Source of the DNA: a virus
DNA: 27,670 bases
Virus record (IMG/VR): IMGVR_UViG_3300035661_000278
Location: 1-27,670 of that record
Reading direction: 5' to 3' (one strand)
Part shown: positions 330 to 3,902 of the stretch, piece by piece
Layout: each line of letters begins with the position of its first letter
Numbering within the stretch: position 1 is the stretch's first letter
Notes under the pieces: generated by a model
Seen by the model: the letters and a program-made list of their open reading frames with translations, nothing else
Told to the model about the DNA's origin: nothing
Database searches by the model: none
Made by a program: the position numbers and the translations under genes

Positions 330-397
330 GCTTCATTCGGTGTCGTGGGAAACACGGGTTGAGAAGACTAGGATGCTGTTCGAATCAGCAATGAAGC
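330..397 (+). ncRNA. tRNA-like element (acceptor + T arm) in a 5' leader
   Basis: GCTTCAT (330-336) pairs perfectly with ATGAAGC (391-397) like a 7-bp acceptor stem. TGCTG (374-378) pairs with CAGCA (386-390) around the loop TTCGAAT, a perfect canonical T arm, and a T sits at position 8 of the element. The middle 37 bases do not make a normal D arm plus anticodon arm: there is one hairpin, CGTG-GGAAA-CACG (344-356), or alternatively GTGT/ACAC, and no 5-bp anticodon stem. No CCA is encoded. It could be a degenerate tRNA, an RNase P or maturation mimic, or a 5'-stabilising cap for the downstream mRNA. A functional tRNA is unlikely. Confidence 0.5.
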
Positions 398-425
398 AAC
401 ACACAACACACAACACACAACACAC
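398..425 (+). repeat. Tandem heptamer (AACACAC)x4 leader
   Basis: Four exact copies of AACACAC, followed by a partial A/C-rich copy up to the ribosome-binding site (aaagga) of the gene at 446. The A/C-only composition makes an unstructured leader between the tRNA-like element and the start codon, which could favour ribosome loading. Confidence 0.8.
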
Positions 426-445
426 AAAACACAAAGGAAAATATT

Positions 446-679
446 ATGTCAACTAAAACACCATTCGAACTCAGATATGATCTATTGCGTCTTGCTAAAG
501 ACACCTTGCAAGATACCTATTATTCTAAGTTGGATGTATACAAATACAACAATGAGATATATAGAGGCGTAGCAGCTACGAAACGACTTCCCAATGACTA
601 CCCTACTATTCCAACCAAAGAAGAAATCTTTGCGTTGGCAGCGGAGTTTAAGGGATTCGTTGAGGATAACCGAAAGTAA
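446..679 (+). CDS. Small conserved-type phage protein, 77 aa
   Basis: Starts at ATG 446 behind AAAGGA with good spacing. The protein begins STKTPFELRYDLLRLAKDTL and carries a second half with YPTIPTKEEIFALAAEF. It looks like a soluble, helical, charged protein with no signal peptide or membrane segment. Small proteins with this FELR...EEI layout are, as far as I recall, common in T4-like phages of aquatic bacteria, without known function. It is the first gene behind the tRNA-like leader and is followed by a separate promoter, so it may be monocistronic. Confidence 0.75.
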   Translation: MSTKTPFELRYDLLRLAKDTLQDTYYSKLDVYKYNNEIYRGVAATKRLPNDYPTIPTKEEIFALAAEFKGFVEDNRK

Positions 680-2009: not shown

Positions 2010-3902
2010 ATGACATCTAAGAAAAACGACGATATTGTCAAATTGAGCGATTATTCGCATTCTCGCCTGAGAACAGAAATGTATTTGGGCAGTCGTAGTC
2101 CGCACACTCAAGTTATTGTTAATTGGGATGGAACGAAACTAAGTCCGGTTGACACGACCTGGACACCTGCTGCTTATTGCGCCTTCCGTGAAATTTTAGA
2201 CAATGCATTAGACGAAGTTGTTGGGCACGGTCATGGTAACCATATAGATGTCACTTACGATCAGAAGACTATGGAATTCACTGTAGCAGACGATGGCCGC
2301 GGTATTCCAATAGATTGGGATGCATCTGAGAATATGCATAAAGCAACAATGGCCTTGACACAAAGCAGGGCTGGACGTAATTTCGGTGTAAGAGAAGAGA
2401 TTCGAGGTACAAATGGAATTGGTGCTAGCGTGGTGGTTAATTGCTCAGAGTATTTCACTGTTGTTATTAACCGCGATTCAAGTAAGTTCACGCAAGAATT
2501 CAAAGAAGGCTCGGTAGCTTTTGATGAACTAGATATCGGTGAACCTAAGATCATAAAAACATCCGGTAACAAAACCGGGACACAAATCAAGTTCAAGCTC
2601 AGTAAACATGTATTCAAGAACATTAAATTGCCCGTCGATTTTATCGAAGCAAGAATGTTTGAGATTGCAGCTAATCATCCTAAGATCAAATTCTCATTCA
2701 ATGGCACAAAGGTTGCAGTTAAGCCGACAATTGAAAAAACAATGTTTGCAGATACTGCCCCTATCTGCATAGAAGTGAATGATAGTAAGTTCAAGAGTAG
2801 TTATTATCTAGTTCCTGGATTTGCTGATGAGGGTGAATACTTACATACAACTGTGAATGATATTCCTGCATTCAACGGTGGCCAACATATCGATACATTC
2901 AAGCGATTGTTCTACGGCGGTCTTATTAAGGCCCTAGAACGTGAGAGCAAGCGTAGATCACTTACACCTAATCGTAGTGATATTGCAGACGGCTTGCTTG
3001 TGTATAACGTTACGACAATGCATGCACCGAATTTCGATAGTCAATCTAAGACACGACTTATCAACGATGACGTTGATGGTTATATTAAGACTGTGTTAGA
3101 GAACGAAGACACATTCAAAAAGATTATACGGACTAACAAGGAATGGATTGATCAAATCTATGCTCGATGTGCTGCCCGTACACAAAAGAAAGATGATGCC
3201 GAGTTAGCCAAGCTTGGACGCAAGATGATGCGCAACAAAGTACCTAAGCTATTAGACGCTAACGGCAAAGATAGAACAAAATGCATTCTGTTGTTAACGG
3301 AAGGCGACTCTGCTAAGACGATGGTTAGTGCTGTTAGAGATCCCGAGATCCATGGTGCATTACCGTTGCGTGGTAAGATTCTAAACGTCCGTGGTGAGAA
3401 TCCAAAGGACATTATAAACAACCAAGTAGTCATGGATTTAATGACATCGATTGGCTTGATCTTCGGACAACCTTGTAAGCGTGAGGATTTACGCTACGGC
3501 AAGGTATATCTTGCAGCTGACCAAGACCCCGACGGTGCAAACATTACTGCATTGCTAGTGAACTTCTTCTATCTGCATTGGCCCGAATTGTTTGATGCAA
3601 CAAAGGAACCGTTCTTCTATGCGTTCATGACTCCGTTCATCATTCAAGAAAAGGGTAAAGCACGCCATTACTGGTATGCACACGATTATCACGAATATGA
3701 TCCGAAGGACTGGAAGAATTGTCCTAAACCAACTCGTGCAAAAGGTTTGGGTAGTTTGGAAGAAGTCGACTGGCGTCATAGCTTAGTGACTCCGCAATTG
3801 ATTCCGTTAATCGACGACGAGAAGTTGAGTGACACATTAGCATTGATATTTGATCCAGATGGTGCAGATGCACGTAAGGAATGGATTGCATTGGATATAT
3901 AA
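2010..3902 (+). CDS. 39: T4-type DNA topoisomerase II, ATPase/TOPRIM subunit
   Basis: 630 aa. The GHKL ATPase has REILDNALDE (Glu61, Asn65), DDGRGIP (Asp95-Gly96-x-Gly98) and GTNGIGAS (133-140). A transducer-like region carries FKRLFYGG and RSLTPNRSDIADGL. The TOPRIM domain has TEGDSAK (Glu431) and DQDPDG (Asp504, 506, 508) for Mg2+ in strand cleavage. T4 itself splits this protein into gp39 and gp60; here both parts are one uninterrupted chain, as in many T4 relatives. With the gp52-like subunit it forms an ATP-dependent type II topoisomerase acting at phage replication forks. It is first in an operon and shares TAATG with the next gene. Confidence 0.93.
   Translation: MTSKKNDDIVKLSDYSHSRLRTEMYLGSRSPHTQVIVNWDGTKLSPVDTTWTPAAYCAFREILDNALDEVVGHGHGNHIDVTYDQKTMEFTVADDGRGIPIDWDASENMHKATMALTQSRAGRNFGVREEIRGTNGIGASVVVNCSEYFTVVINRDSSKFTQEFKEGSVAFDELDIGEPKIIKTSGNKTGTQIKFKLSKHVFKNIKLPVDFIEARMFEIAANHPKIKFSFNGTKVAVKPTIEKTMFADTAPICIEVNDSKFKSSYYLVPGFADEGEYLHTTVNDIPAFNGGQHIDTFKRLFYGGLIKALERESKRRSLTPNRSDIADGLLVYNVTTMHAPNFDSQSKTRLINDDVDGYIKTVLENEDTFKKIIRTNKEWIDQIYARCAARTQKKDDAELAKLGRKMMRNKVPKLLDANGKDRTKCILLLTEGDSAKTMVSAVRDPEIHGALPLRGKILNVRGENPKDIINNQVVMDLMTSIGLIFGQPCKREDLRYGKVYLAADQDPDGANITALLVNFFYLHWPELFDATKEPFFYAFMTPFIIQEKGKARHYWYAHDYHEYDPKDWKNCPKPTRAKGLGSLEEVDWRHSLVTPQLIPLIDDEKLSDTLALIFDPDGADARKEWIALDI

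Follow-up and report, generated by a model that had tools for sequence, protein, structure and literature searches.

What is an RNA with the shape of a tRNA but no anticodon loop doing in a phage genome? The question is raised by a virus fragment of 27,670 bases (the window; IMG/VR record IMGVR_UViG_3300035661_000278), in which a tRNA-like RNA element at positions 328 to 398 of the + strand (the R1/R2 covariance-model match) stands between a permuted transfer-messenger RNA (tmRNA) gene and a small open reading frame (ORF) of 77 amino acids (aa). A sequence-only reading had noticed paired acceptor and T stems around a TTCGAAT loop at the predicted start of an mRNA, and had offered a 5' cap, a maturation-enzyme target, a tRNA decoy or a decayed tRNA as explanations. 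The element is one member of a family of similar RNAs, and the evidence leans towards a tRNA mimic of large T4-like phages that stands alone, does no decoding and would act in trans.

Fold and covariation of the element

The family element is about 70 nucleotides (nt) long and has a complete tRNA elbow (D-loop UGGGA and T-loop UUCGAAU), while the anticodon loop is absent. From 5' to 3' it consists of an 8-bp acceptor strand, two bases, a D-arm, a mini-hairpin, the linker AGGAC and a T-arm, followed by the second acceptor strand. In the window, the 5' strand of the acceptor (330 to 337, +) pairs with the 3' strand (390 to 397, +), after which no CCA is encoded; the stem extends to 9 bp when T329-A398 is included, and all eight pairs change on both sides across the family. 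The D-arm (340 to 355, +) has a stem of 340-344/351-355 and the loop GTGGGA (family consensus GU(N)GGGA). Its 5-bp stem is 97% paired in the family, with three pairs showing double changes, and the TGGGA of its loop is invariant in 23/23 sequences; the inner C344-A351 is unpaired in the window. A mini central hairpin (356 to 369, +; one bulge, loop GAGAA) replaces the anticodon arm. Its 14-nt form with a bulge and a 5-nt GANAA loop, variable at the third base, occurs in all 23 aligned sequences, and 98% of its cells are paired; being almost invariant, its pairing rests mainly on conservation and a single compensatory change (L043). The linker AGGAT (370 to 374, +) occupies the position of the tRNA variable loop, and its GGA is invariant. 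The T-arm (375 to 389, +) has a stem of 375-378/386-389, with an inner pair that covaries between GC, CG and UA, and the loop TTCGAAT at 379 to 385, which fits the tRNA consensus TTCRANY and is kept in all members except L086 (G to A at position 57); the closing G-C is invariant (23/23).

The pairing and loop seen by the sequence-only reading thus stand. The T-stem has 2 to 4 bp beside the 8-bp acceptor, with a total of 12 possible and the outer T pairs mismatched in most members; registers of 8+4 and 7+5 are both compatible with these mismatch-prone pairs and the 8-bp acceptor. The absence of a proper anticodon arm is borne out as regards the loop, but the conserved mini-hairpin and the D-stem had been overlooked. 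One member (L028:4737-4820) carries an additional 9-base hairpin (GGCATTGCC) within the D-loop, with the other parts intact.

A pattern scan of IMG/VR yields 38 viral loci with 26 distinct sequences (74-94 bits) and one strong match per contig; as the loci are found by exact patterns, divergent members are missed. The covariance model R2, built from 21 other sequences with the window and its nearest relatives left out, recovers the window copy at 65.6 bits (E 7.7e-19). With the same model no control contig scores above 21 bits, nor does any of six named phages searched as whole records (Moby, Ps15, RBC63, Melnitz, Phosso and T4). The fold free energy of the window copy is, alone, moderately unusual (z -2.2). 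In L006, a relative identified by its topoisomerase, the same element is found with compensatory changes, and across 23 of the 26 distinct sequences 94.5% of cells in the proposed structure pair and 13 of the 19 pairs show one or more changes that affect both partners. At 0.55, the score for covariation compares with 0.22 in shuffles, none of 500 of which reaches it, and with 0.11 or less when the partner is slid. Covariation is present in the acceptor, D- and T-stems and in every acceptor pair, including an eighth first revealed by RNAalifold. On this comparative evidence the structure is real and is neither a chance fold nor a decayed tRNA; instead of a full canonical tRNA at this place with the pairing lost, related phages carry the same non-canonical element with its pairing conserved, and its tRNA-like character is upheld.

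At the element, neither ARAGORN nor Rfam calls a tRNA in the window, even at E values up to 10. In a cmscan of the window and L061 members over the same range, no Rfam 15 family, tmRNA included, matches the element, and ARAGORN calls only L084 among the family members, with an implausible anticodon. Outside viruses, 22 exact-pattern matches in 257 Gb of bacterial and archaeal genomes all lack the T-arm or acceptor and are attributed to chance; no copy was found in plasmids, and blastn with two family members gave no match in named phages. An exact D-arm match in L014 was rejected as chance, as it lies within a collagen-like repeat gene. At L082:1235-1303, about 300 nt from a permuted tmRNA, an exact 3' half with encoded CCA is joined to a degenerate 5' half (37.5 bits). 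No description of the element was found in the literature, a weak negative since subscription journals were mostly outside the search; there is thus no sign that the family is known to Rfam or to the literature covered.

Conservation, genomic contexts and the link to tmRNA

The element is steadier than real tRNAs. In 145 of 172 comparisons with orthologous tRNAs, its body shows the higher conservation (median 96% vs 83%), while its acceptor is as variable as theirs. Finding loci by exact patterns inflates the conservation of the body; at the 25 positions fixed by no pattern, median identity is still 92%. CCA is encoded by 143 of the 144 canonical tRNAs that neighbour the element in arrays, and the array copies of the element have ACCA only in L029/L045 and L043; the discriminator base varies across the family. 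Two tRNA-His genes (L026:5968-6043 and L043:2095-2172) share GTGTTGTTGG and similar core stretches of 10 bases with the element, and that of L043 scores 35 bits with R2, above other canonical tRNAs. This similarity, in two phages only, is merely suggestive of tRNA-His as the possible origin of the element, or of gene conversion.

The contexts of the element include: (i) tRNA arrays (L026, L029, L030, L043, L061, L069, L074, L079 and L081), (ii) the position directly after a permuted tmRNA (window, L006, L083, L028 and L038) or directly before it (L018), and (iii) the permuted tmRNA itself, the element forming the stem apex of the segment excised between the two tmRNA pieces (L044 and L086). 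In the L069 array, tRNA-Met ends at 208, the element spans 213-281 and tRNA-His starts at 286; given such spacing of a few bases from CCA-ending tRNAs, maturation of the neighbours would require removal of the element. A glutamine-amidotransferase-like protein, judged by eye, is encoded shortly after the element in three contexts (L026, L061 and L044).

Permuted tmRNA often accompanies the element. Of 37 carrier contigs, many of them short fragments (the window tmRNA is itself cut at the edge), 22 have one that scores above the cut-off, as does 1 of 37 control contigs, which are chance matches of the same pattern scan; the sole positive control is L082, with its degenerate copy of the element. 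Among contigs of at least 60 kb the counts are 10/11 carriers and 0/8 controls. For 18 of the 20 carriers in which both positions are available, element and tmRNA share a strand and are separated by no more than 4 kb; the distance is about 30 kb in L026 and L061. All carriers larger than 100 kb have a T4-type major capsid protein, and the carriers form two groups that are about 33% identical in this protein, yet L007 and L009, which lack the element, share 67-68% identity with one of these groups; the distribution is therefore patchy. An unannotated permuted tmRNA is also present in Sinorhizobium phage Phosso (L114, PV764938.1, 349552-349591), with 40 bases of its 3' end matching that of L083 exactly.

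Proposed role and rival explanations

In the proposed mechanism, the element would be transcribed together with the stable RNAs of the phage (tRNA arrays or permuted tmRNA) and probably released by host tRNA-processing enzymes, since a 12-bp acceptor/T helix and an elbow are what those enzymes read. The gap of a few bases to adjoining tRNAs, combined with a helix and elbow of the RNase P type, makes excision likely. Once freed, the element may act in trans and tie up a factor that recognises tRNA elbows, the leading candidates being RNase P, some other maturation enzyme, or the machinery of tmRNA and ribosome rescue; high conservation of the elbow and mini-arm points to a bound partner. Of the meanings offered by the sequence-only reading, those of a decoy and of a maturation-enzyme target survive here as possibilities. 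A bolder form of the proposal, advanced tentatively, is that the family may represent a new class of phage effector RNA, in which an anticodon-less, tRNA-shaped decoy of the host tRNA-maturation or ribosome-rescue machinery acts with the two-piece tmRNA of the phage.

Several observations weigh against a trans-acting mimic. Close relatives exist that have the permuted tmRNA but lack the element, and the tmRNA association is partly lineage-driven. In one clade the element stands alone, 0.4-4 kb upstream of the tmRNA and behind a COG2908 RNA. In the window and L006 a terminator-like hairpin (262 to 289, +, in the window) separates the tmRNA from the element and the ORF comes next, so that a role in cis is possible there. 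No partner gene was found, SmpB being absent from 17 carrier contigs, and complementarity to 16S and 23S rRNA and to RNase P RNA does not rise above that of shuffles.

The best-surviving alternative, though a rather unlikely one, is that the element is processing punctuation in cis: a tRNA-shaped spacer that directs RNase P, along with 3' nucleases, to polycistronic transcripts of stable RNAs, frees the flanking tRNAs, tmRNA pieces or mRNA, and has no role once excised. The 12-bp acceptor/T helix would suit such a spacer, every copy belongs to or lies close to a stable-RNA transcript, and the copies of L044 and L086 fill the segment to be removed from the permuted tmRNA. However, flanking tRNAs have their own processing signals, each phage has a single copy, and RNase P substrates need no invariant core, yet the element's body outconserves tRNAs.

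That invariant unpaired core (GAYYGANAAGAC, GGA) is of a kind typical of ligand-binding or catalytic RNAs, and an aptamer or ribozyme that uses a tRNA-like clamp has been considered; this is improbable, as the core falls on the positions of the tRNA elbow and variable loop, no downstream gene is common to the copies as a switch would need, and no Rfam ribozyme or riboswitch matches.

Slightly less probable again is a structure at the 5' end of an mRNA, acting in cis to protect or regulate the gene that follows, as the proposal of a 5' cap implied. The copies of the window, L006 and L083 do lie 30-48 nt before the same small ORF, which in the window (446 to 679, +; TPFE family) has an ACACAC-rich leader, and the four AACACAC repeats (from about 397) and the ribosome site (AGG, ahead of ATG 446) that the sequence-only reading noted are present. 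By contrast, its transcription start at 331 finds no sigma-70-like promoter on the + strand, and the first paired base is 329/330. Most related copies lie within tRNA arrays, occupy or adjoin a permuted tmRNA, or are distant from the 77-aa gene, with varying gene contexts, and L083 has no terminator between tmRNA and element. Moreover, the leader of the 77-aa gene is present in phages that lack the element there (L002-L005 and L086). As the AACACAC leader also occurs without the element, it belongs to the downstream gene; the adjacency of element and ORF seen in the window, L006 and L083 is a neighbourhood specific to a lineage, so that the suggested cap reduces to a local coincidence.

A functional translating tRNA with a 5-nt anticodon loop appears very unlikely: the elbow and acceptor are tRNA-like, but the third base of the 5-nt loop varies, the discriminator base is variable and CCA is rarely encoded though neighbouring tRNAs encode it; translation is likewise hard to reconcile with the missing anticodon loop. 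A decayed tRNA pseudogene, for which the tRNA-like arms without an anticodon loop and the stretches shared with two tRNA-His genes could speak, is refuted for the family by double changes in all acceptor pairs and by a body conserved in unrelated contexts and in both capsid lineages, more strongly than functional tRNAs of the same arrays.

Window neighbours and related phage RNAs

The tmRNA gene ahead of the element is represented in the window by the 3' part of a permuted, two-piece, alpha-type gene (1 to 263, +; RF01849, 64.5 bits). Farther along are genes resembling the large and small subunits of topoisomerase II; together with capsid proteins from relatives, they indicate that the window comes from a T4-like phage. 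A DUF992 (PF06186) protein with a signal-peptide-like start (754-1221; E 4e-47) is unexpected for such a phage. In L034, the closest relative of the window, an intact permuted tmRNA precedes a gene on the minus strand and, beyond it, a second, truncated tmRNA 3' end (2451-3780); the translation of the minus-strand gene resembles, by eye, a GIY-YIG homing endonuclease, and it looks as if an endonuclease moved into the tmRNA gene along with a donor copy.

Among known RNAs, the nearest in kind are RNA C and RNA D of T4 (species 1 and 2 stable RNAs) and the GOLLD and ROOL RNAs, none of which is homologous to the element. T4 RNA C and D are likewise small stable RNAs beside a phage tRNA cluster and annotated as non-tRNA, and RNA C ends in a T-arm with TTCGAAT; they are, however, 139 and 119 nt long, and homology was rejected, as the T-arm of RNA C, at 14 bits, is the only part that the family model picks up. 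GOLLD and ROOL are phage and prophage RNAs of unknown function near tRNA islands (PMC12286853) but, unlike the element, measure hundreds of nucleotides and form multimeric cages with no tRNA fold; the element has no Rfam match. Canonical tRNA (RF00005) shares the elbow, variable-loop position and coaxial acceptor/T helix, whereas the element is without an anticodon loop, mostly without encoded CCA and poorly paired in the outer T-stem. Permuted two-piece tmRNA (RF01849, RF01850 and RF04321) also has a tRNA-like domain without an anticodon, and its gene often neighbours or contains the element; by contrast, the element is a separate RNA without a tag reading frame, and these phages also have the tmRNA pieces apart from it. 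Two-piece tmRNA is already known from phages such as Melnitz (PMC9004378), in which a model search of the whole record finds no element. The COG2908 RNA (RF02939), which in one clade precedes the element by about 60 nt (L017:4077-4121, minus strand; L060:2014-2058), is a distinct 45-nt structure and is absent from the other contexts examined; a gene judged by eye to be S-adenosylmethionine decarboxylase-like lies just upstream in this clade (L017 and L060).

The stable-RNA repertoire of phages thus gains an RNA family that is absent from Rfam and that stayed hidden because tRNA finders reject the element. A mimic that is steadier than real tRNAs and tied to the two-piece tmRNA offers a handle on why phages carry tmRNA, and also on the role of the non-tRNA stable RNAs of phage tRNA clusters, which have been known since T4 RNA C and D.
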